From Thermoplasmatota archaeon (GTDB taxonomy: Archaea > Thermoplasmatota > Thermoplasmata > Thermoplasmatales > Thermoplasmataceae): 37,442 bases of DNA. Under the pieces are notes generated by a model. That model was given only the letters and a program-made list of their open reading frames with translations. It was not told the origin of the DNA and searched no databases. The translations under genes and the position numbers were made by a program. Positions 16,255-35,918 of this stretch are shown one piece after another; position 1 is the stretch's first letter; every line of letters starts with the position of its first letter. The stretch is taken from assembly GCA_023488885.1 (NCBI GenBank), contig JAMDDH010000065.1, forward strand, positions 1-37,442, given 5' to 3'.

Positions 16255-16296
16255 TCAGGTATCTACGCAAACCATTTTTGTAAATAGGTGATAAAA

Positions 16297-17082
16297 ATGA
16301 CTGAGAAAGGATCAAGACTTGAAGGGAAAGTTGCAATTGTCACAGGGGGCAGTTCCGGAATAGGAAGGGGTGTGGCACTATCGCTGGCTGGACAAGGTGC
16401 AGCAGTTGTCGTTGGAGATATTATAAAAGCTCCTCGCGAAGGCGGCAGGGACACAGTATCTGAAATACAGGCATCTGGCGGAAAGGGACTGTTTATCGAA
16501 ACTGATGTTGCACAGGAGAGATCGATTGTGAATCTCGTCGATAGCGCTGTTAAGCATTTTGGAAAACTGGATATCATGGTTAACAATGCCGGGATAAATA
16601 TAATAAAAACAGTTCATGAATTGACCGGAGAGGAATTTGCGAGAATTATGGATATAAACGTAAAGGGGGTTTTTCTGGGCTGTAAATATGCCTTAGAGCA
16701 CATGACTAAGCAAAATAGTGGAAAAATAATCAATATGGCTTCCAATTTTTCGTTCACAGCACTCGGGAACATATGCGCATATGTAACATCAAAGGCTGCA
16801 GTACTGGGTATGACAAAGGCTCTTGCAATAGAATTCGCACCTCTCGGAATAAACGTCAATGCGATTTGCCCGGGAGCAACTAAAACAGAGTTTACCAGGC
16901 CATTCTGGGGTAATACATCCGGTATGGAAGAGCTTGAAAAAAGGACCCCGCTGAGGAAGAATGGAGAGTTTATGGTTTCTCCATCGGATATAGGTAAAAC
17001 AGCAGTATTCCTAGCTTCTGATGATTCTGACATGATGACAGGTACGAGCATTCTGGTTGATGGTGGCTGGAATGCTTGGTAA
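16297..17082 (+). CDS. Short-chain dehydrogenase/reductase, second (complete)
   Basis: 261 residues from ATG 16297, which has AGGTGA at 16286-16291 as its ribosome site; the in-frame GTG at 16288 overlaps that site and is unlikely to be the start. Motifs in this numbering: VTGGSSGIGRG (cofactor loop, about 15-25), an Asp ending strand 2 (VVVGDI, Asp41, favouring NAD+), NNAGIN, catalytic Ser149 in NMASNFS, Tyr162 and Lys166 in YVTSKAAVLG, then NAICPGATKTEF and a C-terminal DGGWNAW. It is a classical SDR of the FabG/glucose-dehydrogenase type, catalysing alcohol/ketone interconversion. It is co-transcribed with the PqqC-like gene, so it probably acts on the product or substrate of that oxidase. 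Confidence 0.93.
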   Translation: MTEKGSRLEGKVAIVTGGSSGIGRGVALSLAGQGAAVVVGDIIKAPREGGRDTVSEIQASGGKGLFIETDVAQERSIVNLVDSAVKHFGKLDIMVNNAGINIIKTVHELTGEEFARIMDINVKGVFLGCKYALEHMTKQNSGKIINMASNFSFTALGNICAYVTSKAAVLGMTKALAIEFAPLGINVNAICPGATKTEFTRPFWGNTSGMEELEKRTPLRKNGEFMVSPSDIGKTAVFLASDDSDMMTGTSILVDGGWNAW

Positions 17083-21009: not shown

Positions 21010-22152
21010 TTAAAATGACGGTGGCAGACCCAGAGAATGCCTTGCTATTAAGGACAGTGTCATCTGTTCCGGCACTGGTCCGACTCTGAAAAGCCTCAGA
21101 TTCCTCCAATGGAGTTCAATACCCATATCAACAGAGAACGCCATGCCGCCAAAGACCTGCATTGAGTGATCTGCCAGTGCACAGGCTGAGCTTGCAGAAA
21201 GGTATGCAGCTGCATTTGCTTCAAACATTCCATCCTCACCGGCATCGCGTTTTCTGGCAGCTTCTTCAATCATGCGCCAGCTCGCTTCAAGCATTATTTT
21301 CCCATGCGCGAGTGGAAACTGTATAGACTGGTTTGCTCCCAATTGCTTTCCGAAGAGTGTTCTGTCTTTTGCATACTGTGTCGCACTGTTCAGCACTAAC
21401 TCGCCAGTGCCGAGAGAAATGGAGGCCGTGGAAAGCCTCTCAAGGTTAAGTATGCCTGTAAGGGCGCGCCAGCCTTCTCCCTCCTCACCCAGTATATCAT
21501 CTTCCGAAATTGTTACATTATCAAAGAATACTTCGCATGATCCGAGAGATCTGAGAGCAATATCATCGATTCTGGATGTAGTGATACCACTGTGCTCTTT
21601 TGGGTTGATGGCAAAAAGAGTCATGCCTTTTGTGCTTCTGGTCTTCTCCTTTGTGGTCTTTGCGAGAACCAGCATGAGATCGGAGATGTGCGCCATTGTT
21701 ATCCATATCTTTCTTCCCGAAAGTATGAATTCCCCGTTTGAGCGATCCGCACGAGTTGAAATATTCAATGTATCAGTTCCGGCATTGGGTTCAGTAATTG
21801 CGATCGAAGATATCACTTCATTTCTAGCTATCCTGGGAAGAAGTTTTTCTTTCTGCTTTTCGGATCCCAGTGAAGATATGGAAAATGCGCCGAATACATT
21901 ATGAGCCATGATCAAATCACCAGCCGCAACACCGTGTAAGGAAGACGTGTGGCGCACGATCTTTACATAATCAGAAACAGACAGTCCGCTCCCACCATAT
22001 TCTTCGGGCAGCAGTAATGTGGTAAGGCCCAGATTTCTTATTACTTCAAGGAATTCGCCTGGAAACTCGGCCTTCTTATCCTTCTCCACCCAGTAATGAG
22101 TATCAAATTTCCCTGTTCCTTGATTTATGTAGCTGATAATAGTATCTAACAT
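21010..22152 (-). CDS. Acyl-CoA dehydrogenase family protein 1
   Basis: 380 residues from ATG 22152, which lies 13 bases past the CoxL2 stop; an in-frame TTG at 22203 would overlap CoxL2 by 38 bases and encodes an Arg-rich unconserved stretch, so I prefer the ATG. FAD-dependent flavoprotein that oxidises an acyl-CoA to the enoyl-CoA. Family blocks: LLPEEYGGSGLS (48-59), SIAITEPNAGTDTL (116-129), SGRKIWITMA, RTLFGKQLGANQSIQFPLA (264-282), FGGMAFSVD. The C-terminal catalytic Glu (xxEGT in medium-chain enzymes) is missing: the segment reads FRVGPVPEQ with Val357. Glu238 in ILNLERL occupies the place used as base by isovaleryl-CoA dehydrogenase, so it may take over. Probably translated with CoxL2. 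Confidence 0.88.
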   Translation of the reverse strand: MLDTIISYINQGTGKFDTHYWVEKDKKAEFPGEFLEVIRNLGLTTLLLPEEYGGSGLSVSDYVKIVRHTSSLHGVAAGDLIMAHNVFGAFSISSLGSEKQKEKLLPRIARNEVISSIAITEPNAGTDTLNISTRADRSNGEFILSGRKIWITMAHISDLMLVLAKTTKEKTRSTKGMTLFAINPKEHSGITTSRIDDIALRSLGSCEVFFDNVTISEDDILGEEGEGWRALTGILNLERLSTASISLGTGELVLNSATQYAKDRTLFGKQLGANQSIQFPLAHGKIMLEASWRMIEEAARKRDAGEDGMFEANAAAYLSASSACALADHSMQVFGGMAFSVDMGIELHWRNLRLFRVGPVPEQMTLSLIARHSLGLPPSF

Positions 22153-22165
22153 GCAACGTCCCCAT

Positions 22166-24526
22166 TCATTTCTTTCTCTTGGTTTGCGCCGCGCTCTTCC
22201 CAATCTCTTTCAGAACTCTTTCACTCCACAGAGGTAGCTGATTCAGCCTTGCTCCGGTCGCATCGAATACTGCATTATTTATAGCTCCTGAGACGGTTAT
22301 TATTCCCATTTCAGCGATTCCCTTAGCACCGAAGGGACCCTCATGACTCCTGGATTCAATAAATTCCACCTGTATTTCCGGTACCTCGGTTATTCCCGGG
22401 ACTTCATAATCAGAAAATCCGGTGTTCACAACCTCACCGTGCTGAAGGGCAAGCTCCTCAAATAATGTATGCCCTATTGCCTGGATTGCACCGCCAATTA
22501 TCTGGCCCCTGGCACCACTGGGATTTATTATGGTACCACAATCATTCACAATTACGAGCTTCAATGGTCTTACAGTGCCTGTTTCAGTATCGACCTCAAC
22601 CAGTGCTGCAGTAGCGCCTGTAACATAGTCCGAAGAAATATTTCCCTTGTTTGTCTTCGGGTCCGCCATTTCAGTATCCGGATCAAAATAGTAGTAACTG
22701 AAATATGTTTTTCCGCCCTTACTGAAATGCATCTTCCTGATAAATTTTCCAAGGTCTAAGAAAATGGAAGAATCTGACAGGGACTTTATGATTCCATCTT
22801 CTATTACTAAGTCCTGAACGTCAGTCTTGAAAAACATGGCAGCATCCGCAATAATCTCAGCCTTGAGCTTTCCGGCGGCTCTCTGGGCTGCTCCTCCGTT
22901 TACGAAAGTGCCTCTACTTGCATGGGTTGCAGTATCCCATGGCCTGAATTCAGAGTCTCCTTTGTATACAACATTTACCTTGCTAAGTGGGACTCCAATT
23001 TCCGAAGCCACGATCTGGGAAAGCGACTGTATTGAACCCTGGCCCAGTTCACTTATTCCAGTAAAAAGAGTAATGTTCGCATAGTCGTCCATTTTCACAA
23101 CGGCTCCGCTCCCATCTGTGTGATATACTCTTGCTCCTCCGCCAACGTGGATCAATCCTGCAAAGCCAATGCCTAGTTTTTTTGATCCATGGTTTACCAC
23201 CATATGGGGGCCTTTCCAGCCTATGGCCTTAGCTGCCTTTTCCAGAGCACTCTTAAGATTTGAGTTTCTGATGAACATTCCCTGTGGGGTTAAATAATCG
23301 CCCTGATGTGAGTTGATAAGCCTGAATTTAAGTGGATCCATGCCTAATTCATCCGCCAGCATGTCCAGGTGAGATTCCAGTGCAAAGTCCATTTGCGGAT
23401 TCCCGGCCCCCCTCATATTTATAGTATAAATGTTATTTGTATATACTGCCTTAGCGTCAAACCTCACATTAGAAACCTTATAGAGGCCTGTAACTGTTGA
23501 AGCCATCACTCTTGCATCAAATGCTCCCCACGAAACATACGCTCCTGTATCCAGTACTGCATGTACGTCTCTTGCCAGCATCTTTCCATCCCTGTCGACT
23601 CCGCTTTTTATCTTTATCTTGACAGGCTGTCTTGTTGGCGAGAATTTGAAATCTTCTGTACGGTTTAACAATATCTTGACCGGTCTTCCGGTTTTGAGTG
23701 CCAGAGCAGCAGTGATGACCTCAAATGGATACAGTGCCATACCTCTGCCAAATGTTCCGCCTATGTAAGGTTGAACTATCCTGATCTTTGAAGGATCATA
23801 ATTAAGCGCCTCTGCAAGCTCTCTTTTTAGCTGGAAAGGCTGCTGTGTATTTGAAATCAGGACAAGATTTCTTGATTCATCGAAGGTTGCAACCGCACCT
23901 AAAGTTCCCAGAGGGGCAAACGCGACTCGAGGAATGTCAAATTCATCTTCTCTGATAAGGTAACTCTGCCTGAAACCCTCATCAATTGATCCTGATTCAA
24001 CATTAAAATTAATCTTTACCACATTGCTGCCGGTCTCATCGTGAACAAGAGGTGCGCCATTTCTCAAAGCCTGTTCCGTATCAAATACACCATCTATCCG
24101 CTCGTAGTCTATTTCCACATCTTCCTGTACATCTTTTGCAACCCTTTCCAGATCGGTTGTAGCAACTGCCAGGATCTCATCGCCGATTGATCTTATTTTC
24201 GGATATTTCAGCGGAGGATTGTCTTTTAAGGGACCTATATTGCTGAACCCTGCGTCTTTGCCAGTAATTATCGCTTTTACATGATCTCTCCTGAAAAGTT
24301 TCTCATAATCCAGTCTCTTGATAATACCATGAGAGATCGGGCTTCTCATTATGTAAGCATATAACATACCTGGAAGTTCAACATCATTTATGTACTCCGC
24401 AAAACCCCTGACCTTATCATAACCGTCAAATGTTCTTGGTACAGGAGTTCCAATATATTTCCCATCTTCTCTTGCGAAGGTGATATATTGCAGATTCTCC
24501 GTACGATTCTCAGCCGCTCTAGACAT
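22166..24526 (-). CDS. Molybdenum hydroxylase large subunit (CoxL/xanthine dehydrogenase family), CoxL2
   Basis: 786 residues. Cofactor motifs: YIGGTFGRGMALY at 244-256, INMRGAGNPQ at 359-368 (form II-like RGAG loop, conserved), ELGQGSIQSLSQ (GQG loop), and GPFGAKGIAEMG with the catalytic Glu739. It hydroxylates an aldehyde, purine-like or other heterocyclic carbon, or a CoA-linked aromatic. It is clearly divergent from CoxL1 (different cofactor loops, different ends), so the two are not a recent duplication and probably have different substrates. It lies in a leftward run between the OCD-family gene and acyl-CoA dehydrogenase 1, suggesting its substrate or product is a CoA ester or feeds one. 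TATA-like TATTTATTTTTA at 24551-24562 supports the start. FAD and FeS subunits must come from CoxM/CoxS at 33.5-34.9 kb or from elsewhere. Confidence 0.92.
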   Translation of the reverse strand: MSRAAENRTENLQYITFAREDGKYIGTPVPRTFDGYDKVRGFAEYINDVELPGMLYAYIMRSPISHGIIKRLDYEKLFRRDHVKAIITGKDAGFSNIGPLKDNPPLKYPKIRSIGDEILAVATTDLERVAKDVQEDVEIDYERIDGVFDTEQALRNGAPLVHDETGSNVVKINFNVESGSIDEGFRQSYLIREDEFDIPRVAFAPLGTLGAVATFDESRNLVLISNTQQPFQLKRELAEALNYDPSKIRIVQPYIGGTFGRGMALYPFEVITAALALKTGRPVKILLNRTEDFKFSPTRQPVKIKIKSGVDRDGKMLARDVHAVLDTGAYVSWGAFDARVMASTVTGLYKVSNVRFDAKAVYTNNIYTINMRGAGNPQMDFALESHLDMLADELGMDPLKFRLINSHQGDYLTPQGMFIRNSNLKSALEKAAKAIGWKGPHMVVNHGSKKLGIGFAGLIHVGGGARVYHTDGSGAVVKMDDYANITLFTGISELGQGSIQSLSQIVASEIGVPLSKVNVVYKGDSEFRPWDTATHASRGTFVNGGAAQRAAGKLKAEIIADAAMFFKTDVQDLVIEDGIIKSLSDSSIFLDLGKFIRKMHFSKGGKTYFSYYYFDPDTEMADPKTNKGNISSDYVTGATAALVEVDTETGTVRPLKLVIVNDCGTIINPSGARGQIIGGAIQAIGHTLFEELALQHGEVVNTGFSDYEVPGITEVPEIQVEFIESRSHEGPFGAKGIAEMGIITVSGAINNAVFDATGARLNQLPLWSERVLKEIGKSAAQTKRKK

Positions 24527-24655: not shown

Positions 24656-25633
24656 TTACATATCCAGTTCAACATACTTTTTATTGAACACGGCCTTTTC
24701 GTATATGTACTTCGCAGATATGACGTCCAGAGTTGCATATCCAACGGACTTGAACAAGGTAATGTCATTCTCTTTCCTTGGAATTTCAACTTTCTTTGAC
24801 AATATATCTTCCAGTTCCACCAAGTTTTCTAATTTCAGAACACCATCATCTACTGCACCCATTATGTCTCCTGCCTCTTTGAGAACAAATTCCGTTTTGT
24901 CAAGAATAACATGATTCGCCCTTTCAATGGTAGTAAGATCGAGTTCCTTCCGATTAGGAAGTGTTCCAATACTTGAAATATGACAGCCCTCCTTTATGTG
25001 GTTGCCATCAATCACGGGAACTTCTGAGTCCGTTGCAACTATGAGAATATCTGAGCGATCCACTACCTGATTTGCGTTTCCAGCATCGTATGAGTCGACA
25101 CCAAGCTTCCTGATCCTGTCTACGAAATCTTTCCTATGGACGGGATCTCTACTGAATACCACTACTTTTTCCAATTTTCTGGGCACGAGCATCGCTCTTG
25201 TCAAAAAGAAGGCCTCAAGCCCTGATCCTATGACCCCAAGGGTAGTGGCATCAGCACGGGATACGTATTTTGCGCACAACCCAGCCAGAGCCCCTGTCCT
25301 TAGCGCTGTTACATAATTTGAGTCCAGAATCGCGAGAATTTCACCAGTGGTGGCTTTTGCCAGCATGGTCAAACCAGTTGACTTAGGAAGCGAAATTTTC
25401 TGGTTTTTCTTGTACTCGGATACCAACTTCACCAGAAATACATCTCTGGTAAAGTCTACAGCAGGCATGGAAAGCCACACTGATGTTGATTCCTCAATTG
25501 TAATTACCTGCCTCATGGGAAGTATGTATTCTGTTTTTCTTATCAGATCTCTCTCCAGATAGTTCATGAACTCTCCCATGTCGGAGACAGAATCTGATGC
25601 TTTGAAATTTATGAATTTCACCAGCCGAATCAC
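24656..25633 (-). CDS. Ornithine cyclodeaminase/mu-crystallin family protein (probable imine reductase or amino-acid dehydrogenase)
   Basis: 325 residues. Substrate-site Lys69 (FLVKL) and Arg112 (TALRTGALAG) and the dinucleotide loop GVIGSGLEA (133-141) are present, so it is a NAD(P)-binding OCD-family enzyme. The Asp that is essential in true ornithine cyclodeaminase (GxDxxGKxEL block, Asp228 in the Pseudomonas enzyme) is absent: the block reads SIGTLPNRKELDL (220-232). That resembles the mu-crystallin/ketimine reductase and alanine dehydrogenase branches more than cyclodeaminase. A likely role is interconversion of an amine with a keto or cyclic imine. Its ATG overlaps the stop of acyl-CoA dehydrogenase 2 by 4 bases, so the two are translationally coupled and presumably in one pathway. 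Confidence 0.85.
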   Translation of the reverse strand: MIRLVKFINFKASDSVSDMGEFMNYLERDLIRKTEYILPMRQVITIEESTSVWLSMPAVDFTRDVFLVKLVSEYKKNQKISLPKSTGLTMLAKATTGEILAILDSNYVTALRTGALAGLCAKYVSRADATTLGVIGSGLEAFFLTRAMLVPRKLEKVVVFSRDPVHRKDFVDRIRKLGVDSYDAGNANQVVDRSDILIVATDSEVPVIDGNHIKEGCHISSIGTLPNRKELDLTTIERANHVILDKTEFVLKEAGDIMGAVDDGVLKLENLVELEDILSKKVEIPRKENDITLFKSVGYATLDVISAKYIYEKAVFNKKYVELDM

Positions 25634-26766
25634 TCCCTCACTCCGGGAAGACCCAGGGTTTTTTCCGCTATACTTACAAGTGCGAGCTGTTCAGAAATTG
25701 GGCCCATTCTGTAGTATCGTATGTCACGGAACAGTTTCTCTACCATTCCCGACAGGTAGCCGCTTGCACCAAGTGTCTGCAATGAAGCATCAATCGCTGA
25801 GGAAGAAGCTCTAACTGCGTGATAATAAACACCCATGGGAAGATCGCGATTACTTTCTATCCCACCGCCATCAACCATTCTAGCACTGTGCTCCAGATAA
25901 GCCCTAGAAGCTGAAAGCTCCACATATGCTTTTGAGAGGGGAAACTGGATTCCCTGGTTTGCTCCTATCTCTCTCCCGAAAACAACTCTTTTTCTAGCAT
26001 AATCCAATGCTCTCGATAAAGCCATGTTACCCATGCCAATGAACATTGCACTCAACGCAAGCCTGTCAGCGGCAAAGGTCTTGGATAACATTGACCAGGC
26101 TCTGTCAGGCTCTCCTAGAATCGATTCCCTGTCTATTATTATTCTGTCAAATGAAATAGAATAAAGGGGAAGAAAGTTCAATCCCATTTTCTTAAGTTCT
26201 TTGAATTTTATTCTATCTGGCTGCTTGCGTGTGATGACAAAAACGGTAAGGCCGTGGCTCTTTTTCTCTCCTGAGTCTGAAGTCCTGGCTGCCACCATCA
26301 GATAATCAGCATTTTTGCCATTTGTAACACAATACTTTTCACCACTTATTTCGTAGTCCCCATTCTCAGCTGGTGTTGCCCTGGTTCTTATGCTGAGGGC
26401 ATCAGCGCCTGATTGTTCTTCGGCCAGTGCAAGATTCACCTTGGATTTGCCAGTCATTACTTCAGGCAGGAAAGACTTCAGCTTCTGTGTTCCATAATCG
26501 TCGAATAGCTTTGCAGAAAGATTCTGTGCAACAAAATAATAAGTCAAAGTGCCTACTTTTGAGCTCATGTCCAGAATGTTCTTAACAAACTCTGTGAAGC
26601 TGATGCCAGAACCTCCGTTTTTCTTTGACACCAGAAGGCCAAATTTGCTTCGCTCTCCGAGAGATTGCCAGAATTTTTCGGGAAATTCCTCCTTTTCAGA
26701 GACATCCGTATAATAGTCCTCGTCAAATTCTGATGTGAATTCTCCTAACCAATCCTTTCCATACAT
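25630..26766 (-). CDS. Acyl-CoA dehydrogenase family protein 2
   Basis: 378 residues. Family blocks: GGSGISFTEF (51-60), NLALAEEQSGADALSI (111-126; the usual TEPxAGSD motif is altered to AEEQSGAD), SGEKYCVTNG, RVVFGREIGANQGIQFPLSKA (260-280), TLGASGYLSG. Like its neighbour at 21.0 kb it lacks the C-terminal catalytic Glu: YYRMGPISEQ, Met354 in its place. The alternative isovaleryl-type base position is Asp234 (FAADRLAL), not Glu. Activity as a standard dehydrogenase is therefore uncertain; some ACAD-fold members are oxygenases, hydroxylases or other. GGGGAGAT (complement of 26774-26781) 7 bases upstream fixes the ATG. Stop and the OCD-family start overlap by 4 bases. It differs from copy 1 throughout, so the duplication is old. 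Confidence 0.86.
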   Translation of the reverse strand: MYGKDWLGEFTSEFDEDYYTDVSEKEEFPEKFWQSLGERSKFGLLVSKKNGGSGISFTEFVKNILDMSSKVGTLTYYFVAQNLSAKLFDDYGTQKLKSFLPEVMTGKSKVNLALAEEQSGADALSIRTRATPAENGDYEISGEKYCVTNGKNADYLMVAARTSDSGEKKSHGLTVFVITRKQPDRIKFKELKKMGLNFLPLYSISFDRIIIDRESILGEPDRAWSMLSKTFAADRLALSAMFIGMGNMALSRALDYARKRVVFGREIGANQGIQFPLSKAYVELSASRAYLEHSARMVDGGGIESNRDLPMGVYYHAVRASSSAIDASLQTLGASGYLSGMVEKLFRDIRYYRMGPISEQLALVSIAEKTLGLPGVRE

Positions 26767-26941: not shown

Positions 26942-27712
26942 TCACCTTCCCTTATAGTTTGCCTTACGCTTTTCCAGGAAGGCTTTCACTCCCTCTTTGA
27001 GGTCTTCCGTATAGAACAGGGATGAGTTTTCTTTCAGTTGATATTCCATGCCTTCATCAATGCTCATCTCAGAGCCGTTGTTTACAACGGCTTTTATAGC
27101 TCCCACGGCCATTGGTGCTTTTTCAGCAAGGGCAGAGCTTATTTCTTCCACCTTTTTCATTAGCTCTTCCGGATTCTCTACCCGGTTGACAAGGCCAAGT
27201 GACAGCGCAATATCAGCAGTCATCCATTCACCCAGTAATGCAATCTCCTTGGCCTTAAGTTTTCCAACAGCTCTCGGCAATCTAACAAGTATTCCTGCAC
27301 CAGGGCTGATTGCAACATTCACTTCAGGCAAACCAAATTTTGCCTTGCTTGAGGCTACAACAATATCTGCCGCCTGAATAATCTCCAGATTGCAGTGTCC
27401 GTTTACAGCAGCTATTATTGGCTTCCTAACATGCTCCATCAGCCTGAATAGGTCTATGACCTTCCTGTTGAATCTTTCTATTCCCTTTGCATCGAAAGCA
27501 AGAAATTCCTGCAGATCTCCACCGACTGAGAAGGCTCTACCCTTGCCTGTAATAATTATTACTTTTGTGTTGTCATCATATTTAGAATCGTTAAGGAAAT
27601 CGGTTAATTCATCAACCAGTGCTTCATTCCAGGAATTCAGGCTGTCCGGTCTGTTAAAATATACTGTGGCAACAGCATTGTTTCTGGAAATCTCTATGTT
27701 TTTGTAATCCAT
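26942..27712 (-). CDS. Enoyl-CoA hydratase/isomerase (crotonase) family protein
   Basis: 256 residues from ATG 27712, which has AGAGGA about 8 bases upstream; a longer reading from 27787 adds 25 unconserved residues and is rejected. Crotonase blocks: GKGRAFSVGGDL (56-67), AAVNGHCNLE (101-110), FGLPEVNVAISPGAG (126-140), LVRLPRAVG. Both catalytic glutamates of hydratases are kept, Glu110 and Glu130, with the same 20-residue spacing as Glu144/Glu164 in rat enoyl-CoA hydratase. However the loop before Glu110 is three residues shorter: the usual NGxALGGGxE is NGHCNLE, so the glycine that gives an oxyanion-hole NH is lost. Function may be hydratase, isomerase, lyase or hydrolase. It is the first gene of the leftward run leading to acyl-CoA dehydrogenase 2, 175 bases on. 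Confidence 0.86.
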   Translation of the reverse strand: MDYKNIEISRNNAVATVYFNRPDSLNSWNEALVDELTDFLNDSKYDDNTKVIIITGKGRAFSVGGDLQEFLAFDAKGIERFNRKVIDLFRLMEHVRKPIIAAVNGHCNLEIIQAADIVVASSKAKFGLPEVNVAISPGAGILVRLPRAVGKLKAKEIALLGEWMTADIALSLGLVNRVENPEELMKKVEEISSALAEKAPMAVGAIKAVVNNGSEMSIDEGMEYQLKENSSLFYTEDLKEGVKAFLEKRKANYKGR

Positions 27713-27844
27713 AAAATATCCTCTTTTTGCAATACATAGTTGAAGTATTAAGATTTGTTGCCATAAATTTTGAAATATGCCTGGCATTCTTTGTTCTGTT
27801 CCAGTGATAAATCGCGCTGTTTCTCGCAGTGGTGAAACGAGAGA

Positions 27845-27875: not shown

Positions 27876-29267
27876 ATGCTCAATGATCTCTTTGACCCAA
27901 AGGCTGTTGCCATAATTGGAGCGTCTCAGGATCCTACGAAAATAGGGAATGCAGTCTTGAGAAACATGATAGATTCAGGCTATGGTGGAAAGATTATCCC
28001 GATTAATCCATCAAGCCCCGAAGTAATGGGCCTTAAATGCCATCCATCCATAGACGATCTTGAGTCTGTGCCCGATCTCGCAGTCATAGCTCTTCCTGCT
28101 AACCGCGTCTATGACGCTCTGGGCGCTTGTGTCAAAAAGGGAGTTAATTACGTGATCGTAATTGCCGGTGGTTTTTCTGAGCTTGGAAAAGAAGGCAAAG
28201 AGAGGGAGCAGCAGATGAAGAATCTTATAACAAATACACCTACAAGGATAATTGGTCCGAATACTCTTGGAGTGTATTTCCCTCATTCAGGAGTGAATAC
28301 ATCACTCACTTCCAGAGGAATGATATCATTCCTTCCGAAAGGAAATATCGCATTTGTGTCTCAGAGTGGGGCCCTTGGGCTTCTCACCATGGATGCAGTG
28401 TCTGAATATAATGTCGGAATTTCAGCATTCCTCAATCTTGGAAACAGAATAGATTTGAATGAGGTAGAACTTCTTGATTATTTTGCTTCCGATAAGAACA
28501 CCAAAAGCATTGTATTGTATCTGGAAAGTGTGCCGAAAGGCAGAGAGTTTTTTGACAAGGTAAAACTGGTAAGCCCGAAAAAACCAGTCATTATCCTGAA
28601 ATCCGGAAGAACTCAGGAATCCGCTATTGCAGCATCCCTACATACTGGGGCAATGGCATCAAATGATGCAATTGTTGACGGCGCAATTTCCCAATCAGGG
28701 GCGGTAAGGGCTTTCGATGAAACTGAGATGATGGATTACAGCAGAGTCTTGGCATATTCCAGTAAACTTAGAGGGGACAGAATTGCAATACTTACAACAG
28801 CGGGAGGAGTGGGAGTCATAACTGCAGATTATGTCTCTTCCAGCATTAATGGTGTAGGATTGAAAATGGCGAAGTTTTCAGACGAGACCAAATCTAAGAT
28901 TAGAGAAGTTATTGTCCCTTTTGCCTCAGCGAATAACCCGATTGATCTGACTGCAGATGGAAGCATATCGGACTTTGACAAGGTTATAGGCATTCTTGAA
29001 AATGATGAAAATGTTGATGGGATTATAGCATACCCATTGCCTCAAACTCCAAGAATGGGTGTAGGAGTTGTGGAGGTTATAGATAAGTACAAGAACGAAA
29101 AGAAACCGATTGTCGTGGGGGTTCTCGGGTCCCAGATAGCCAAAGATTTGATAGTTGAATTTGAGAAGAGAAAAATCCCAGCTTATCCATCCGTGCATAG
29201 AACTGTGAAAGCGGTCAAAGCTTTGCGTGTTTACAGTGCATATGTTGAAAGGAGGGAAAGTCAGTGA
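27876..29267 (+). CDS. ADP-forming acyl-CoA synthetase, alpha subunit (CoA-binding and phospho-His domains)
   Basis: 463 residues, the size of the Pyrococcus ACD1 alpha subunit. The N-terminal CoA-binding Rossmann domain (1-125) opens with DPKAVAIIGASQDPTKIGNA; a succinyl-CoA-synthetase-like domain follows with NIAFVSQSGALGLLTMDA (157-174), and SLHTGAMASNDA carries His256, at essentially the position of the phosphorylated His257 in the Pyrococcus enzyme. The complex converts acyl-CoA + ADP + Pi to acid + CoA + ATP, the standard archaeal way to make ATP from acyl-CoA. The beta subunit gene follows with a 4-base overlap. No third domain is fused, so this is the split form. The acyl group is unknown; acetyl-, branched or aryl-CoA forms all exist. 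Confidence 0.93.
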   Translation: MLNDLFDPKAVAIIGASQDPTKIGNAVLRNMIDSGYGGKIIPINPSSPEVMGLKCHPSIDDLESVPDLAVIALPANRVYDALGACVKKGVNYVIVIAGGFSELGKEGKEREQQMKNLITNTPTRIIGPNTLGVYFPHSGVNTSLTSRGMISFLPKGNIAFVSQSGALGLLTMDAVSEYNVGISAFLNLGNRIDLNEVELLDYFASDKNTKSIVLYLESVPKGREFFDKVKLVSPKKPVIILKSGRTQESAIAASLHTGAMASNDAIVDGAISQSGAVRAFDETEMMDYSRVLAYSSKLRGDRIAILTTAGGVGVITADYVSSSINGVGLKMAKFSDETKSKIREVIVPFASANNPIDLTADGSISDFDKVIGILENDENVDGIIAYPLPQTPRMGVGVVEVIDKYKNEKKPIVVGVLGSQIAKDLIVEFEKRKIPAYPSVHRTVKAVKALRVYSAYVERRESQ

Positions 29268-29929
29268 ATGCTGATGAAGCCCGCAAGCTAATAGAAAGTG
29301 GAAGGGTGGATGAACGTACCCTGAAGGACATTCTGTCATTTTATGGAATTTCTGTTCCAAAAGGTGTGACGGTAAAGAATATTCCGGACAGCTTGGATCT
29401 GCACTATCCAGTGGTTCTGAAAGTTTCAGACCCTGAGATTCTGCACAAGACTGAAGCTGGAGGTGTCAAAACAGGAATTGGGGATTACAGCCAACTAAGA
29501 ATAGAGTTTGAGAAGATGTTCAGGAAATTTCCCGGCAAGAATTTCCTGATAGAGGAAATGATCAGCTCAGGCGTTGAAATAATAATTGGCGCAATTGACG
29601 ATGAAAGCTTTGGGCAAGTAATTATGCTTGGCATGGGAGGAATATACACAGAACTCTACAAGGACGTGGTATTCAGGCTCCTACCCATTGACAGGAACGA
29701 TGCGGAGGACATGATAAACAGCGTTGGTGTCAGAAAATTTGTTGAAGGATTCAGGAATATCAGAGTTTCCGGAGATGAACTCATCCGCCTTCTTCTGAAA
29801 ATTTCAGATTTCGTTACAGCAATAGGATCTAATGTAAAACAGCTGGACCTCAATCCGGTAATATTGGGCAATGACTCAGCCGTGGTGTTAGATGCCAAGC
29901 TAATCCAAAACCCGCCAAATAAATTATAA
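29264..29929 (+). CDS. ADP-forming acyl-CoA synthetase, beta subunit (ATP-grasp domain)
   Basis: 221 residues from a GTG that overlaps the alpha stop by 4 bases (GTGA), so synthesis is coupled. ATP-grasp features: YPVVLKVSDPEILHKTEAGGV (48-68) with His61, the counterpart of the beta-subunit His71 that relays phosphate in Pyrococcus ACD1, then FLIEEMISSGVEIIIG and FGQVIMLGMGGIYTEL for nucleotide binding, and QLDLNPVIL near the end with the metal-binding Asp/Asn. The length is close to the usual ~230. It completes the two-subunit enzyme that would recover ATP from the CoA esters produced by the flanking acyl-CoA genes. It ends 22 bases from the convergent thiolase-fold gene. Confidence 0.93.
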   Translation: MNADEARKLIESGRVDERTLKDILSFYGISVPKGVTVKNIPDSLDLHYPVVLKVSDPEILHKTEAGGVKTGIGDYSQLRIEFEKMFRKFPGKNFLIEEMISSGVEIIIGAIDDESFGQVIMLGMGGIYTELYKDVVFRLLPIDRNDAEDMINSVGVRKFVEGFRNIRVSGDELIRLLLKISDFVTAIGSNVKQLDLNPVILGNDSAVVLDAKLIQNPPNKL

Positions 29930-29951: not shown

Positions 29952-31154
29952 TCAGTAGTTAGATAGAGCCATTACTCCCTTGTTGAGAAGGTTTCCGTTG
30001 TAACCAAGTCCGCCCAAACCTGTAACAAGGCCCATTTTACAGTCCTTTACCTGGCGGCCGCTTGCTTCACCTCTCAATTGCTGGATTGCCTCTGTGAAAA
30101 GCGAGAAACCTCCTGCAGTACCGGCCTGGCCACCTGATAGTTGCCCTCCGCCAGTGTTCACTGGAAGGACTCCGTTATAGGAGATATCGTTATTTTCAAT
30201 GAAGTGTCCCCCTTTCCCTGGCTTTGCAAAACCCAGAGCTTCCAGCTGCATTAACACGATTATGGTAAAGTCGTCGTATAGCTGGAGAAAATCAACATCT
30301 TTTCTAGATGCGCCGCTTTCCTCGAGTACCTTGTCTGTTGCAGCACCCATCTTCAAATCCGTTATGTCTCTGAGATCATTTTCTGCATCTGTATTCAAGG
30401 CTGTTTCGAAACTCTTGATGTATACGGGTCGATCTGTAATCTTCTTGGCGTGTTCCTCACTCGAAAGCATGATTGCGTAGGCTCCATTAATCGGTATGAC
30501 TGCATCCATCACCCTCATTGGAGAAGCAATTACTGGAGATTTCATATATTCATCAATGGTGAGGGGCTTACGCAGATAGGCGTTTGGGTTGAGCATGGCA
30601 TGTTTTCTGGATGTAATTGCGATGTTTGCCAACTGCTCCTCATTAGTACCATACTGGTTCATATGTCTCCTCATGATGAACGCCCCCTCACTTAGCGGGC
30701 CAACCATTCCTATTGGCATTTCGTAATTAATTTCATATCTCCAGGTACGCTCAGGCCTGAAGCGAGATTGCATAGGTGCGGGCATCATGGGGGTATCTGC
30801 GCCTATAAGGATAAAGTGGTCCAGTTTTCCTGAGGCTATGGAAAGATATCCCTGAACCATTGAAAAAAAGGCTGCAGCGCCACCGTGATCAGAAACAAAT
30901 GTTAGAGAAGGAGAGAGACCTAAGTTAGCTATTACTTCAGAAGACCATATCATGGCGTGCGGCCACATGGGCCTGTTCAACCCTATTCCATATTTCATTG
31001 AGTTGAGATTTTTTTTAGAGATCCCCACAGCATCCAGAAGTTTATTCAGCGCAAAAGCTTGGTATTGTTCGGTAGTGTACACCTCTTCACCCTTGTCTTT
31101 CCTGGCTCGAGATGGTTTCATTATGGAGTAACCCGATACTGCAACTTTTCTCAT
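29952..31154 (-). CDS. Thiolase-superfamily protein lacking thiolase catalytic residues (SCP-x/Ltp-like, possible aldolase)
   Basis: 400 residues with the thiolase fold pattern of the SCP-x/lipid-transfer-protein subgroup. The nucleophile loop reads TFVSDHGGAAAFF (85-97), with Ser/Asp/His where thiolases have the reactive Cys; the GHP motif is LSGGQAG (329-335), no His; the second Cys loop CxGGG is TGLGGLG (368-374). The usual NEAFA is YDDFT with Tyr283. The only Cys I find is Cys362. It therefore cannot do ordinary thiolysis. Ltp2 of steroid-degrading actinobacteria, which also has a repurposed thiolase site and needs a DUF35 partner, is a retro-aldolase; BbsB, also DUF35-partnered, is a real thiolase. 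A DUF35 protein is encoded two genes upstream, so an aldolase-like complex is the best guess. Confidence 0.85.
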   Translation of the reverse strand: MRKVAVSGYSIMKPSRARKDKGEEVYTTEQYQAFALNKLLDAVGISKKNLNSMKYGIGLNRPMWPHAMIWSSEVIANLGLSPSLTFVSDHGGAAAFFSMVQGYLSIASGKLDHFILIGADTPMMPAPMQSRFRPERTWRYEINYEMPIGMVGPLSEGAFIMRRHMNQYGTNEEQLANIAITSRKHAMLNPNAYLRKPLTIDEYMKSPVIASPMRVMDAVIPINGAYAIMLSSEEHAKKITDRPVYIKSFETALNTDAENDLRDITDLKMGAATDKVLEESGASRKDVDFLQLYDDFTIIVLMQLEALGFAKPGKGGHFIENNDISYNGVLPVNTGGGQLSGGQAGTAGGFSLFTEAIQQLRGEASGRQVKDCKMGLVTGLGGLGYNGNLLNKGVMALSNY

Positions 31155-31279
31155 AATATAATGCAGAGAATTATAAAACTCTTAAATCTTGTTGTCGAAA
31201 ACTTTCCATTGCAGTGCATTACTAATTCTTGCAGCAGCATTGTGTTAGATTTGTTATCCGAGTCATGCCATAAAATCTC

Positions 31280-32758
31280 TCATTCTCTACTCGCGTTTTC
31301 TTGCTCTAGAACTCTGTGCAGTATTTTACCTATGGATGATTTCGGAAGCTCAGAGCGGAATTCTATGATTCTCGGAACTTTGTATGCAGAAAGTCTGGCC
31401 CTGCAGAACGCAACAATATCAGTCTTCGTTATTTCACATTTGGAAACGATGAATGCTTTTACTGTTTCTCCATAAATAGGATCATTTATGCCAATTACTG
31501 CGGTCTCCCTAACACATTCGTGCTCCATTATCGTATTTTCCACTTCTGTTCTCCAAATTTTATATCCACCTGAAATTATAACATCCTTCGCCCGTCCTAA
31601 CAAGTAGATGCCATCTTCTCCTACATATCCAGTATCTCCAGTAAGGAGGTAGCCCCCAGATGTAAATACCTCTAGATTCTTTTCCTCGTTCCGCCAGTAT
31701 CCCGACATCACCTGAGGACCTTTAACCGCTAACATTCCAATTGATGAAGCTGGAAGTATATTCCCTTCGCCGTCCACTGTAACAATCTCGGTTCCCGGTA
31801 GAGGCTTGCCCACATAATTTTCCTTGAATTTCCCGGGTGGAGCCACAGAAAGTTGTGGAGAAGCTTCTGTCAGACCCCAACCCACAACAATGGTTTTTCC
31901 GGTCATAGCCCTGAATTCATTGGCCACATTCTCATGTATCTTGTCCCCTGATAAGAAGAATATTCTCACTGAGGAGAGGTCCCTGTTCCTGAGATCAGTA
32001 GATTTTACAAGACTGCTGTATACCGTTGGGACTCCAATAACCACTGATACTTTCTGCTGTTCTATTATGTCCAGGAGAACCGTGGGGTCGAATTTACTCA
32101 TAATTATAGTCTTTCCGGCATTGTAAAGTGATGTATTCATACTGCAATTCATACCACCACTGTGTGTCATGGGAAGAAACTGTACAAATGTCTCCTTTCC
32201 ATATTTAAGACCCAACATTCCGCTCAGACCTGACAGCATATGCATGACATTCCTGTGGCTAAGCGGAACTCCTTTAGAGAACCCTGTCGTCCCTCCGGTA
32301 AAGAAAATAACTGCGGTGTCTTCCGGTTTGATTTCCGGAGGTTTAAATCCATCAGAACTACCATAAAAATCGGGGCCTCGACTTACTATAATTGTTTCTT
32401 TGCAAGAATTGGATGCAGAATCTCTCTTGATTTCGTCAACAAATTGGATGGAAGCTTGTGTGTTATCGGAAATGTAATCCAATTCTCTCTTGCTTGATCT
32501 GAAATCGACCGGCACCACAATGCCGCCGGCTCTCAGAACAGCATAGAATGCTACCACAAATTTCCAGTTGTTAGGGAGATAGAGGATAACTCTCTCCCTT
32601 TTTTGAATACTATACTCGTGGACGAGGTAAGATGCCAGATTTGTGATCTTTTCTCCTAACTGCCCGTAAGTAAAACTGTAACCTCCATCAATTATACACG
32701 TCGAGTTTTTGTCTCCATGGCCTATTATCTCATGTAACAGTTCTGGACCGGGCAACAT
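31280..32758 (-). CDS. AMP-forming acyl-CoA synthetase/ligase
   Basis: 492 residues, complete ANL-superfamily enzyme. Motifs: FTGGTTGFSKG (153-163, ATP phosphate loop), VVGWGLTEASP (291-301), TGDTGYVGEDG (383-393 region), GRAKDVIISGGYK (the hinge and A8 loop), and the adenylation Lys478 in PKSSIGKILHR. It activates a carboxylic acid with ATP to the acyl-adenylate and then the CoA ester. Which acid (fatty, aryl or a ring-cleavage product) cannot be read. It lies between the DUF35 gene (92 bases upstream) and the thiolase-fold gene (125 bases downstream), all leftward, so it probably makes the CoA ester that the thiolase-DUF35 pair uses. Confidence 0.92.
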   Translation of the reverse strand: MLPGPELLHEIIGHGDKNSTCIIDGGYSFTYGQLGEKITNLASYLVHEYSIQKRERVILYLPNNWKFVVAFYAVLRAGGIVVPVDFRSSKRELDYISDNTQASIQFVDEIKRDSASNSCKETIIVSRGPDFYGSSDGFKPPEIKPEDTAVIFFTGGTTGFSKGVPLSHRNVMHMLSGLSGMLGLKYGKETFVQFLPMTHSGGMNCSMNTSLYNAGKTIIMSKFDPTVLLDIIEQQKVSVVIGVPTVYSSLVKSTDLRNRDLSSVRIFFLSGDKIHENVANEFRAMTGKTIVVGWGLTEASPQLSVAPPGKFKENYVGKPLPGTEIVTVDGEGNILPASSIGMLAVKGPQVMSGYWRNEEKNLEVFTSGGYLLTGDTGYVGEDGIYLLGRAKDVIISGGYKIWRTEVENTIMEHECVRETAVIGINDPIYGETVKAFIVSKCEITKTDIVAFCRARLSAYKVPRIIEFRSELPKSSIGKILHRVLEQENASRE

Positions 32759-32850
32759 TTACTTTACACCCAGTATGTATTTAACAACTTCTATGGTTCC
32801 ACGCCTGCTTACACAGAAAATGATAAGGGTTGTTACGTACGTTTTTGTAT

Positions 32851-33261
32851 CTAAAGCAATTTGAATTCTGGAAGCCCTATTTCTTCGGACACGGTCCTGA
32901 AAACAACTCTCACTGGGTCCCCTATCTTGACATTTTTACCATTTTCAGAAAGAATCCTGCTGTACAATCTGATTCCTTCCTTGAGTTCGACTGACGCTAT
33001 GACATAAGGCACCTCCTTCTCGAATTCCTTGGAGTTCATAATGACCCGGTTTATTTCAGTGAATGAGTAGACTTTTCCTTCTCCGGAACTTTTTACCCAT
33101 TCGAGATCAACAGAATAACACTTTACACAAATTGCCTTTGGATAAAACTGAGTGTTCCCACATTTTATGCACTTCTGTATCAGAAGCTTATCTTCACTTA
33201 ATCCTTTAAAAAACTGAGAATTTATAGGATCAATTTCCGGCAGAGGCTTATCATTCTGCAT
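32851..33261 (-). CDS. DUF35 zinc-ribbon/OB-fold acyl-CoA-associated protein
   Basis: 136 residues, normal for the family. The N-terminal helix (NSQFFKGLSEDKLLIQKC) leads into a rubredoxin-like zinc ribbon with Cys31, Cys34, Cys45 and Cys48 (CIKCG then CVKCYS), followed by an OB-fold (GEGKVYSFTEINRVI to the end). All four zinc ligands are present. Such proteins bind thiolase-fold enzymes and contribute to the active complex: archaeal HMG-CoA synthase/acetoacetyl-CoA thiolase, Ltp2-ChsH2 aldolase and BbsAB thiolase. The non-canonical thiolase-fold protein two genes on is the obvious partner. TTCTTAATAACATTTT (33281-33296) about 25-30 bases upstream is a possible TATA box. Confidence 0.92.
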   Translation of the reverse strand: MQNDKPLPEIDPINSQFFKGLSEDKLLIQKCIKCGNTQFYPKAICVKCYSVDLEWVKSSGEGKVYSFTEINRVIMNSKEFEKEVPYVIASVELKEGIRLYSRILSENGKNVKIGDPVRVVFRTVSEEIGLPEFKLL

Positions 33262-33526: not shown

Positions 33527-34045
33527 TTATGGTTTGAGATCGAGAATCTCTTCCAGTCTCTTCTTGGCGGCATCGTATATAGGTACGTATCCAGTACATC
33601 TGCATATATGTCCTGCGAGTCCATCCTTTATGTAATCGCCCATGTTTCCACTGTACAGTTTGTCAATAATATCCGGTTCTTTCTTTAGTTCAAACTCCAT
33701 GGCTTTTACCGCCATAATGAATCCGGGTGTACAGTAACCGCACTGAAAGGCCCATTCGTTCATGAACTCGTATTGAATTTTGTCCAGTTCTTTTGTCGTG
33801 CCCAGGCCATCCACGGTAAAGACTTCTTTCCCCTCAACCTTCATTGCCGGATACATGCAGGAATATATGTTCTCCGAATTAACTATAACTGTGCATGCCC
33901 CGCATCCCTCCGCCTCGCATCCCTGCTTCACTCCTTTCTTCCCCAGCTTTTTTCTCAAAATATCAAGCAGAGTGTCACCAATGTTAGCTTCAACAGAAAT
34001 GGTTTCTCCGTTTAGGGTGAATATCAAATCTCTCTTATCTGCCAT
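33527..34045 (-). CDS. Molybdenum hydroxylase small 2Fe-2S subunit (CoxS)
   Basis: 172 residues from ATG 34045; an in-frame TTG at 34054 is an alternative. Both clusters are complete: a plant-type [2Fe-2S] site with Cys43, Cys48, Cys51 and Cys63 (GCEAEGCGACTV), and the helical-domain site with Cys102, Cys105, Cys138 and Cys140 (QCGYCTPG and HICRCTGY). It passes electrons from the molybdenum centre to FAD. Its start lies 11 bases inside the end of CoxM, so the two are coupled. It is the only CoxS in the window, whereas two different CoxL genes are present, so it may serve either or both. The 265 bases downstream (33262-33526) contain no gene that I can support. Confidence 0.95.
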   Translation of the reverse strand: MADKRDLIFTLNGETISVEANIGDTLLDILRKKLGKKGVKQGCEAEGCGACTVIVNSENIYSCMYPAMKVEGKEVFTVDGLGTTKELDKIQYEFMNEWAFQCGYCTPGFIMAVKAMEFELKKEPDIIDKLYSGNMGDYIKDGLAGHICRCTGYVPIYDAAKKRLEEILDLKP

Positions 34046-34907
34046 AATTTTCAACCCCCATCAATTCCGTAATACCTCTCCTGAACAGAGTTCCCAGCAA
34101 TTTTTTCCTGTAATCAGACGATGACTTGTGGTCTGTGTAAAATTTTATATTCTCATTCTTTAATATCATTTCAACTCCCTTTTCAACAAGTTCGGCTTCA
34201 AAGTGTTTTCTTTTCAATTCATCTTCAATCTCGTTGAGCCGTATTGGATGTGAATCGAGAGCTCCCCCCCCTACTGAAATTCCAATGTCTTCCAGATAGT
34301 TATCTTTAACATTCACTGCAAGAGCCATGCTCACATCACTGAAACCGTGTTTTGTGTAACTGAATTTTAGATAGGTTGATTTGTTGTAAGACGAAACAGG
34401 AATTTCAACAGATTCTATTATAGATCCCTTCGGTATGTTTGGACTGAACATGTTGGAATACATTTCGGACATTCTTACATTATTTGTTTCCTCACCATCT
34501 GTAATGTTTACAGATCCTCTCAAGGCCAGCAAACAGACGGACAGATCGAATGCTGGAAACGCAGTAAATACCTGACCTCCAACAGTTCCCACATTTCTTA
34601 CTTCTTTTGGGATCGATAAGACGGCCTGATCAATCATGTCGATCTTTGTTATGCACTTCCCGACATCGCTCAGTTTTGTCATCGCACCAACTTTAACTGA
34701 TCCCACGTTTTCTTTCACGTACGAAAGATTAAGTTTCTCAAGGTTTACCACGGATTCCACATTGCTCATTATCCCTTTATTTGAGAAGATATATATGCCA
34801 GTCCCACCAGCAATAGGCATTGAGTTTTCCTCCGATCCTAGAATCTCACACGCTTCTTTGATAGAGGTAGGAATATGGTAACTTTTCAACTCTAGTTTAT
34901 AGGGCAT
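34035..34907 (-). CDS. Molybdenum hydroxylase FAD-binding medium subunit (CoxM)
   Basis: 290 residues from ATG 34907 (MPYKLELKSYHIPTSIKEAC). The longer reading from 34976 adds 23 residues and runs across a clear TATA box, so it is rejected. FAD signatures of the CO dehydrogenase flavoprotein family: PIAGGTGIYIF (31-41) for the pyrophosphate and RNVGTVGGQVFTAFPAFDLS (104-123) for the second FAD loop. The ISVGGGALDSHPIRL segment matches the C-terminal domain. It accepts electrons from CoxS and delivers them to an external acceptor or oxygen. The order CoxM-CoxS without CoxL is unusual: the catalytic subunits lie 9 kb (CoxL2) and 29 kb (CoxL1) away. Confidence 0.93.
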   Translation of the reverse strand: MPYKLELKSYHIPTSIKEACEILGSEENSMPIAGGTGIYIFSNKGIMSNVESVVNLEKLNLSYVKENVGSVKVGAMTKLSDVGKCITKIDMIDQAVLSIPKEVRNVGTVGGQVFTAFPAFDLSVCLLALRGSVNITDGEETNNVRMSEMYSNMFSPNIPKGSIIESVEIPVSSYNKSTYLKFSYTKHGFSDVSMALAVNVKDNYLEDIGISVGGGALDSHPIRLNEIEDELKRKHFEAELVEKGVEMILKNENIKFYTDHKSSSDYRKKLLGTLFRRGITELMGVENYGR

Positions 34908-34928
34908 ACTGTTATGCAAGAACAGAGA

Positions 34929-34941
34929 CTTATTATTTTTT
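34929..34941 (-). promoter_or_regulatory. TATA box of the CoxM-CoxS unit
   Basis: An AT run (TTATTATTTTTT within 34929-34941) is centred about 27 bases before ATG 34907, as expected for a leaderless archaeal message. Confidence 0.5.
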
Positions 34942-35093
34942 TCTACCACAGTGTGACGAAAGCAGTAATTCCTCATTAACTCACTATTCTACTGCCATTG
35001 TTCCTCTTCACTCCGTTGACTTATTTGATTTACTGGGCATTTCATGAATAATTGGACGGAGAGAGGCATAGAAAATACGGCATCAAAATCCTG

Positions 35094-35321: not shown

Positions 35322-35482
35322 CTACTTAAACGGATTTACCACAACTATCTCCGGAATCTTGGCAAAGTCTTCTCATTTTCCGTTACAATTCTTGATGGGT
35401 CATACGCCTTCATGGTTTTGGAAGCGAGAACCTCCGAGGATATGATTCCAACATTGGAAATATTTATTTCTAATTCTTTCAT
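35322..35482 (-). pseudogene. Frameshifted remnant resembling the C-terminus of a VapC/PIN-domain toxin
   Basis: Reading leftward from ATG 35482 gives about 33 codons ending SRIVTENEK, then an early stop in that frame. Skipping one base at about 35370 gives DFAKIPEIVVVNPFK and a stop at 35322. The joined reading (IVTENEKDFAKIPEIVVVNP) resembles the last strand and tail of PIN toxins, where an IVTxxxKDFxxI..I.VINP pattern is common. The rest of the PIN domain, including its acidic nuclease residues, is missing. I read it as a dead VapC-like gene with a one-base loss. The call rests on a short match and is moderate at best. Confidence 0.4.
35458..35469 (+). promoter_or_regulatory. TATA box of hicBA
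   Basis: AAATATTTATTT is centred about 28 bases before the GTG at 35492, giving a leaderless message. It lies inside the sequence of the PIN-like remnant on the opposite strand. Confidence 0.5.
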
Positions 35483-35491
35483 AAGTTAACA

Positions 35492-35701
35492 GTGAAATAC
35501 ACAGTTATCCTGGAGCCTCAGAAAGAAGGAGGGTTTACAGTTACTGTCCCTGCACTTCCTGGATGCATCTCCGAGGGTGAAACCGTGGACGAGGTGATAA
35601 AGAACATCAAAGATGCAATTACAGGTTACATTGTGAGCCTGAGGAAGCACGGAGAACCAACCCCTGTAGAAATGTCAGTGGAAGTGCCTATAGATGCCTA
35701 A
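35492..35701 (+). CDS. hicB: HicB-type antitoxin
   Basis: 69 residues from a GTG start. The whole protein is the HicB partial RNase H-like fold: MKYTVILEPQKEGGFTVTVP, then PALPGCISEGETVDEVIKNI and a helix with DAITGYIVSLRKHGEP, ending with PVEMSVEVPIDA. No C-terminal DNA-binding domain is attached, so it is the short form. It neutralises HicA and usually regulates the pair. The antitoxin is encoded first and overlaps hicA by 8 bases, an order often seen in archaea and cyanobacteria. Confidence 0.92.
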   Translation: MKYTVILEPQKEGGFTVTVPALPGCISEGETVDEVIKNIKDAITGYIVSLRKHGEPTPVEMSVEVPIDA

Positions 35702-35918
35702 ACTGCCAACACTCTCTGGCATTAAAGTTGTGAAGGTACTAACCAGATCTGGTTTTTCTATTGACCAACAGATAAGAAGCCACATAATATTGCGCCATGA
35801 AGGCAGCCCGGTCCGAACAGTATCCGTTCCCAAACATAAGGAGCTGAAAACCGGAACTCTAAAAGGTATAATCAAGCAATCAGGCCTCACCGTTGAGGAG
35901 TTTGTTGAGTTGCTTTAA
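35694..35918 (+). CDS. hicA: HicA-type mRNA interferase toxin
   Basis: 74 residues; dsRBD-like small toxin. It has the typical opening LPTLSGIKVVKVLTRSGFS, the catalytic-histidine block RSHIILRHEG (His30) and the closing HKELKTGTLKGIIKQSGLTVEEFVELL. HicA cleaves mRNA when not bound by HicB. The active-site His and full length are present, so the pair looks functional. Its stop lies 2 bases from the end of a transposase remnant, marking the left edge of a degenerate mobile-element zone. Confidence 0.92.
   Translation: MPKLPTLSGIKVVKVLTRSGFSIDQQIRSHIILRHEGSPVRTVSVPKHKELKTGTLKGIIKQSGLTVEEFVELL

Follow-up and report, generated by a model that had tools for sequence, protein, structure and literature searches.

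Positions 1–37,442 of contig JAMDDH010000065.1 of a Thermoplasmatota archaeon (family Thermoplasmataceae, assembly GCA_023488885.1), hereafter called the window, encode on the minus strand a thiolase-fold protein (29952–31154) which, together with a DUF35 partner, is predicted to be a coenzyme A (CoA)-ester retro-aldolase, converting a 3-hydroxyacyl-CoA into an aldehyde or ketone and an acyl-CoA. We put the probability of this reading at about two in three. An aldolase is preferred over a thiolase because the protein is sister to the bile-acid side-chain aldolase Sal, shares conserved residues with it, finds its best structural match there and lies in a corresponding gene neighbourhood; these four lines support the DUF35-dependent aldolase proposed in a preliminary description of the window. 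The fold, the loss of thiolase residues, the tree position, the fixed residues and the recurring neighbours are direct results, from which we infer reaction, residue roles and substrate. The enzyme probably breaks carbon chains by releasing an aldehyde and not by ordinary β-oxidation.

Locus, active site and DUF35 partner

The three genes of the locus are transcribed in one direction, first DUF35, then an AMP-forming acyl-CoA ligase and then the aldolase, with spacings of 92 and 125 bases (Table 1). All three open reading frames are intact and match their Pfam families well above the cut-offs (zf-ChsH2 plus OB_ChsH2_C, AMP-binding, and PF22691 Thiolase_C_1, the last with 129 bits against a cut-off of 28), which bears out the ligase and four-Cys DUF35 genes described upstream of the aldolase on the same strand. 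Two further genera of the archaeal family (genomes G013 and G412) have the three genes in the same order, and comparison between genera shows strong purifying selection on the aldolase gene (nonsynonymous divergence pN 0.15 vs. synonymous pS 0.83, the latter saturated); the locus is therefore not a product of chance. Nine gene pairs compared between the window and G013 are all under purifying selection. The cluster has a G+C fraction of 0.432, near the 0.424 of the window, and Rfam and tRNA scans of the window returned no matches.

Active-site residues were assigned from alignments with Sal, with the aldolase Ltp2 and with thiolases of the family to which the protein belongs. The three catalytic positions of DUF35-type thiolases such as BbsAB and the archaeal acetoacetyl-CoA thiolase are all replaced: the nucleophilic Cys by Gly92, the HDxF His by Tyr293 (of YDDF) and the GHP His by Gln343, so that no intact Cys/His pair is found in the alignment. 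The loss of nucleophile and GHP His had been recognized before, with the Gln numbered 333, ten too low. An alternative placement of the nucleophile at Ser88, obtained by anchoring on GGAA, was dropped, since Gly92 is the position given both by aligning the helix from end to end and by the Sal study (PMC12329534). The Cys of the CxGGG motif, also reported as lost, is truly absent; its loss is not diagnostic, because BbsB, a true DUF35 thiolase, lacks it as well, as do Cys-bearing archaeal thiolases of the same family.

Sal of Comamonas testosteroni (CtSal), which acts with the DUF35 domain of Shy (PDB 9MYR), shares with the window protein the thiolase fold, a DUF35 partner and a place in sister clades. 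In CtSal, Tyr302 is the base and Cys304 the acid, Gln347 and Gln352 lie beside Cys304, and Gln161 and Gly391 form the oxyanion hole (PMC12329534). Both proteins carry Gly in place of the thiolase Cys, and Tyr302, Gln347, Gln352 and Gly391 correspond to Tyr293, Gln338, Gln343 and Gly382 of the window protein, the first three being retained in 13/13 proteins with Asp at the third position of the motif (YDD proteins). The combination of this Gly with the Tyr of YDx[FY] is that of the DUF35-dependent aldolases. The essential Cys304 of Sal proper (YDCY) is replaced by Asp295; this position is Asp in 13/13 YDD proteins and Cys in 12/12 Sal-clade proteins. Six residues (Asp120, Tyr203, Asp217, Asn254, Asp295 and Tyr385) occur in every one of the 13 YDD proteins and never or hardly ever in Sal.

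Other known systems are less similar. Ltp2–ChsH2 of Thermomonospora curvata (PDB 6OK1) has the thiolase fold, a DUF35 partner and a YDxF motif with a catalytic Tyr, but it has YDHF and a second catalytic Tyr344 where the window protein has YDDF and Gln343, and it is more distant on the tree. The products of the ibuprofen genes ipfABDEF (pIBU218) include IpfDE, described as a retro-aldolase that acts on ibuprofen-CoA dihydrodiol, giving propionyl-CoA and 4-isobutylcatechol (PMC9195938); here too a CoA ligase stands with thiolase-fold and OB-fold proteins, a β-hydroxyl is installed upstream and the nucleophilic Cys is missing. IpfD differs by its YDAF and GGHLSGFYLQG motifs and its long branch outside the YDD and Sal clades, and IpfE has lost the zinc Cys residues present in the window DUF35 protein. 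The benzoylsuccinyl-CoA thiolase BbsAB (PDB 7PXP) shares fold and partner, whereas BbsB retains the nucleophilic Cys, HDAF and GHP.

DUF35-dependent CoA aldolases of thiolase fold are already known, and the YDD clade is, judged by its sequences, neither Sal nor Ltp2. The preliminary description had suggested a third type from the Gln at the GHP His position; that argument falls, this Gln being a Sal feature (Gln352 of CtSal; PMC12329534), yet Asp295 and the five other clade-fixed residues make it seem that a third type does exist.

Single-chain models of the aldolase and of the DUF35 protein reach mean predicted local distance difference test (pLDDT) values of 88 and 92.7. When they are superposed on known structures, the best PDB match of the aldolase is CtSal (9myr_A, template modelling (TM) score 0.82) and that of the partner is CtShy-DUF35 (9myr_B, TM 0.86), followed by ChsH2; the monomer fold alone cannot separate aldolase from thiolase, as thiolase structures in the PDB score equally high. 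A low-confidence loop of the aldolase model (residues 132–150) lies at the position of the loop which is disordered over the open pocket in Sal and Ltp2.

The window DUF35 protein contains the zinc ribbon C31-x2-C34-x10-C45-x2-C48. It is a stand-alone protein with a C4 ribbon, unlike Shy, where DUF35 is fused to a MaoC hydratase and the ribbon is C3H1 in CtShy. Every YDD gene of the tree with an annotated neighbourhood has a DUF35/OB-fold protein or domain encoded nearby, the match being weak and tentative in Limnohabitans (L072). The archaea, pENH92, Bosea, Ochrobactrum, Sphingobium and pJP4 carry it as a gene of its own; among these partners, those of pJP4, Bosea, Sphingobium and Ochrobactrum have lost the C4 ribbon in part or entirely. 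The DUF35 domain of Sulfitobacter, Labrenzia and Paracoccus is fused to a short-chain dehydrogenase (L138 3214–4452, L146 6053–7309 and L153 4541–5785), adjoining YDDY aldolase-like proteins; after ChsH2 and Shy, this is a third form of DUF35 fusion.

Phylogeny and distribution of the YDD clade

A maximum-likelihood tree of 50 full-length proteins, repeated without four motif blocks, unites all 13 full-length YDD[F/Y] proteins in one clade (bootstrap/Shimodaira–Hasegawa-like approximate likelihood ratio test 100/99; 100/98 without the motif columns). This clade is sister to the Sal clade, the support for their union being again 100/99 and, without the motif columns, 100/98. The window protein accordingly lies outside the Sal clade proper, and the HDxF thiolases are placed far off. 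The Sal side of the YDD/Sal split also holds a long branch with two archaeal YDSF proteins. Outside both clades are Ltp2, IpfD and the types YDCF+HP and YDSF/YDAF+HP.

The YDD clade comprises four archaeal and nine proteobacterial proteins. Besides the window protein (P0001), the archaeal members come from G013, Nitrososphaerales archaeon L045 (47%) and archaeon Maxine3 L046 (44%); the proteobacterial ones include plasmid proteins of pJP4, pENH92 (Cupriavidus necator NH9), Bosea, Sphingobium, Ochrobactrum and Sulfitobacter. The motif YDDY also occurs in five more plasmid-borne proteins closely related to the Sulfitobacter type. The scan of genome contigs used the pattern Q[LI]YD[DC][FY]TI and is thereby biased towards Asp or Cys at the third motif position; the plasmid search was free of this bias, and the members read from it are of YDD, YDC, YDS and YDA types. 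The enzyme had been described as archaeal, which holds for four members of the clade; it is no archaeal speciality, most known relatives being proteobacterial and several residing on catabolic plasmids.

Within the archaeal family, the gene is carried by 3/77 genomes. The G013 aldolase (record CP009479.1, uncultured archaeon) is 78% identical to the window protein, and G013 keeps the window gene order from the molybdenum subunit through DUF35; the G412 aldolase is 64% identical, its cluster being cut by a contig end. No other close copy was found among 400 genomes of the class. Given this sparse occurrence, the aldolase appears to be a patchy trait, possibly transferred. A search of viral contigs with the aldolase gave no match.

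The window genome encodes four PF22691 proteins, each with a DUF35 gene adjoining or nearby. The three others (L161 G000:C10, L162 G000:C36 and L163 G000:C22) have Thr or Gly at the nucleophilic Cys position, and L026 and L030, relatives in the order, have Ser; all five retain HDx and a GHP-like motif. Loss of the nucleophilic Cys in this archaeal group extends beyond the YDD protein. A further uncharacterised type, YDCF with TTHGGLLSxxHPG, keeps the His and has lost the nucleophilic Cys (L055, L058, L060–L063, L094, L116 and L123); it occurs in betaproteobacteria and one Rhizobiales genome, and several of its genes adjoin acyl-CoA dehydrogenase and hydratase genes.

Proposed reaction and its alternatives

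The genes surrounding YDD aldolases fall into recurrent sets. The archaeal aldolases (window, G013, L045 and L046) are accompanied by two acyl-CoA dehydrogenases and a crotonase-type hydratase, the latter unlike the MaoC hydratase of Shy. A molybdenum hydroxylase large subunit is encoded nearby in the window, G013 and L046, and the small subunits in the window and G412. In bacteria, one context consists of acyl-CoA dehydrogenase and hydratase (NH9, Bosea and Sphingobium), with aldehyde dehydrogenase genes near the Bosea and NH9 homologs, and another of ligase and ring-hydroxylating dioxygenase (pJP4, pDB1, Labrenzia and Paracoccus), the latter repeating the ibuprofen gene layout. Both can end in a β-hydroxylated acyl-CoA. 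The ligase, which had been called dedicated, is indeed linked in three genera of the archaeal family and beside these dioxygenase-linked relatives, but it was not seen near the aldolase in L045 and L046.

In the proposed pathway, the ligase would activate a carboxylic acid, and the acyl-CoA dehydrogenases and hydratase would produce the 3-hydroxyacyl-CoA. The aldolase would then break the C2–C3 bond, releasing an aldehyde or ketone and acetyl- or propionyl-CoA. Here, Tyr293 would act as base and deprotonate the 3-hydroxyl group, Asp295 would act as acid and, held by hydrogen bonds with Gln338 and Gln343, protonate the enolate, and DUF35 would complete the substrate cleft. The aldehyde could be oxidised by the linked molybdenum-dependent oxidoreductase, for which the large subunit in Table 1 is a candidate, and the acyl-CoA product would pass to the ADP-forming acyl-CoA synthetase with recovery of ATP. 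A bulky or aromatic acid is our guess for the substrate; indolepyruvate oxidoreductase genes adjoining the G412 cluster and aminotransferases near L045 and in the window hint, with low confidence, at an acid derived from an aromatic amino acid. The wider proposal is put forward tentatively as a possibility: a third type of DUF35-dependent aldolase in archaea and proteobacteria, whose catalytic pair would be Tyr and Asp, against Tyr and Cys in Sal and two Tyr residues in Ltp2, with an archaeal aldolytic step followed by aldehyde oxidation by a molybdenum enzyme replacing the dehydrogenase and thiolase steps of β-oxidation.

Several observations weigh against the aldolase. The oxyanion-hole Gln161 of CtSal corresponds to Pro153 of the window protein, and Tyr165 and Arg216 to Gly157 and Pro207. 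Replacing Cys304 of CtSal by Ala, Ser or His leaves no detectable activity (PMC12329534). Asp at this position is therefore no neutral swap: it either achieves the same chemistry by another means or reflects a different one, and may mean the latter. A short-chain dehydrogenase/reductase (SDR) is encoded in the window at 16288–17082, with a close relative in the G412 cluster, and could in principle oxidise a 3-hydroxyacyl-CoA. Finally, the molybdenum hydroxylase may act on another substrate.

An alternative is another kind of C–C bond enzyme, in which a 3-oxoacyl-CoA is cleaved hydrolytically or decarboxylatively and Asp295 is the base activating water or substrate. A carboxylate is a stronger candidate than Cys for water activation, the six YDD-fixed positions suggest a functional shift, the related TbSLP slowly decarboxylates malonyl-CoA (PMC12329534), and SDR genes near some YDD members could supply the 3-oxoacyl-CoA. 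We nevertheless regard such an enzyme as unlikely, in that no YDD protein lacks Tyr293, which corresponds to the base of the aldolases Sal and Ltp2, and the dioxygenase-linked members would present a β-hydroxy and not a β-keto substrate. Furthermore, no 3HCDH-type 3-hydroxyacyl-CoA dehydrogenase occurs in the YDD neighbourhoods examined, and the three full-length matches to such dehydrogenases in the window genome all lie on contigs other than that of the window; this absence is suggestive, not decisive, as the SDR genes could do the same job.

Two further explanations are each very improbable. Aldol reactions being reversible, the same enzyme could join an acyl-CoA enolate to an aldehyde, but its surroundings (ligase, acyl-CoA dehydrogenases, hydratase, ADP-forming acyl-CoA synthetase and oxidoreductases) are catabolic. 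The loss of every classical thiolase residue would also suit an inert scaffold for the ligase or hydratase; against this stand the invariance of Tyr293, Asp295, Gln338 and Gln343 across archaeal and proteobacterial members and the strong constraint on the gene. An ordinary DUF35-type thiolase can practically be set aside: the best NCBIfam matches do carry the names acetyl-CoA acetyltransferase or lipid-transfer protein, but all are far under their cut-offs (best 222/421 bits), the nucleophilic Cys and both His residues are replaced, and the protein groups apart from the HDxF thiolases.

If the retro-aldolase reading is true, archaea gain a way of shortening chains by CoA-dependent aldol cleavage. 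Text searching of the open-access literature (subscription journals lay outside it) retrieved no such archaeal route, no report on the YDD clade and nothing useful on the pJP4 ligase–thiolase genes or the CP009479 genome. The public records read give YDD proteins the name thiolase or acetyl-CoA acetyltransferase; one protein so named is encoded next to tfdA on pJP4, the classic 2,4-dichlorophenoxyacetic acid (2,4-D) plasmid. Should YDD proteins be aldolases, the thiolase step that pathway predictions give them is wrong. In addition, the clade constitutes a natural test of how a thiolase fold is rebuilt for retro-aldol chemistry, as Cys304 of Sal tolerates no Ser, Ala or His and yet the sister clade has Asp.

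Features of the window and of related loci

Table 1. Genes of the aldolase locus and its surroundings in the window.
Feature	Coordinates	Strand	Remarks
Thiolase-fold aldolase-like protein, PF22691, 400 aa	29952–31154	−	Gly92, Tyr293-Asp294-Asp295-Phe296, Gln338, Gln343, Gly382
AMP-forming acyl-CoA ligase, 492 aa	31280–32758	−	between DUF35 and aldolase genes
DUF35 partner, zf-ChsH2 + OB_ChsH2_C, 136 aa	32851–33261	−	four-Cys zinc ribbon
Acyl-CoA dehydrogenase 2 of pair	21010–22203	−	same pair, G013, L045, L046
Molybdenum hydroxylase/aldehyde oxidoreductase large subunit	22166–24526	−	related gene beside aldolase in L046
Ornithine cyclodeaminase/mu-crystallin family protein	24656–25633	−	syntenic in G013
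Acyl-CoA dehydrogenase 1 of pair	25630–26766	−	pair near aldolase in all sufficiently long archaeal loci (G013, L045, L046)
Crotonase-type enoyl-CoA hydratase	26942–27787	−	also linked in G013, L045, L046
ADP-forming acyl-CoA synthetase-like subunit alpha	27876–29267	+	opposite strand, synteny shared with G013
ADP-forming acyl-CoA synthetase-like subunit beta	29264–29929	+	opposite strand, synteny shared with G013
Molybdenum hydroxylase 2Fe-2S subunit	33527–34054	−	also beside DUF35 in G412
Molybdenum hydroxylase FAD (flavin adenine dinucleotide) subunit	34035–34976	−	also beside DUF35 in G412

Like the window, an Ochrobactrum plasmid carries an ornithine cyclodeaminase/mu-crystallin family gene (L136 9480–10421), there next to genes for a YDDY aldolase and DUF35. 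On pJP4 (L133 7361–11584), genes for ligase, aldolase-like protein, OB-fold protein and ring-hydroxylating dioxygenase directly follow tfdA, and the set is also found on pDB1 (L148); it resembles ipf and looks like a module for removing the side chains of aryl acids. The unassigned pJP4 thiolase family protein (Cupriavidus pinatubonensis JMP134, NZ_AY365053) belongs to the same clade as the window protein and has YDDF, GGQLSAGQ and the order ligase, aldolase-like, OB-fold; it differs in lying beside the dioxygenase gene and tfdA and not beside acyl-CoA dehydrogenases, and in an OB-fold partner without the zinc Cys set.

A second molybdenum hydroxylase large subunit is encoded in the window at 3160–5559 on the plus strand, with no small or FAD subunit adjoining; both large subunits may be served by the single set of S and M subunits in the window (33527–34976). 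Just past these subunit genes, a HicB antitoxin gene and a HicA toxin gene overlap by 8 bases on the plus strand (35474–35918).

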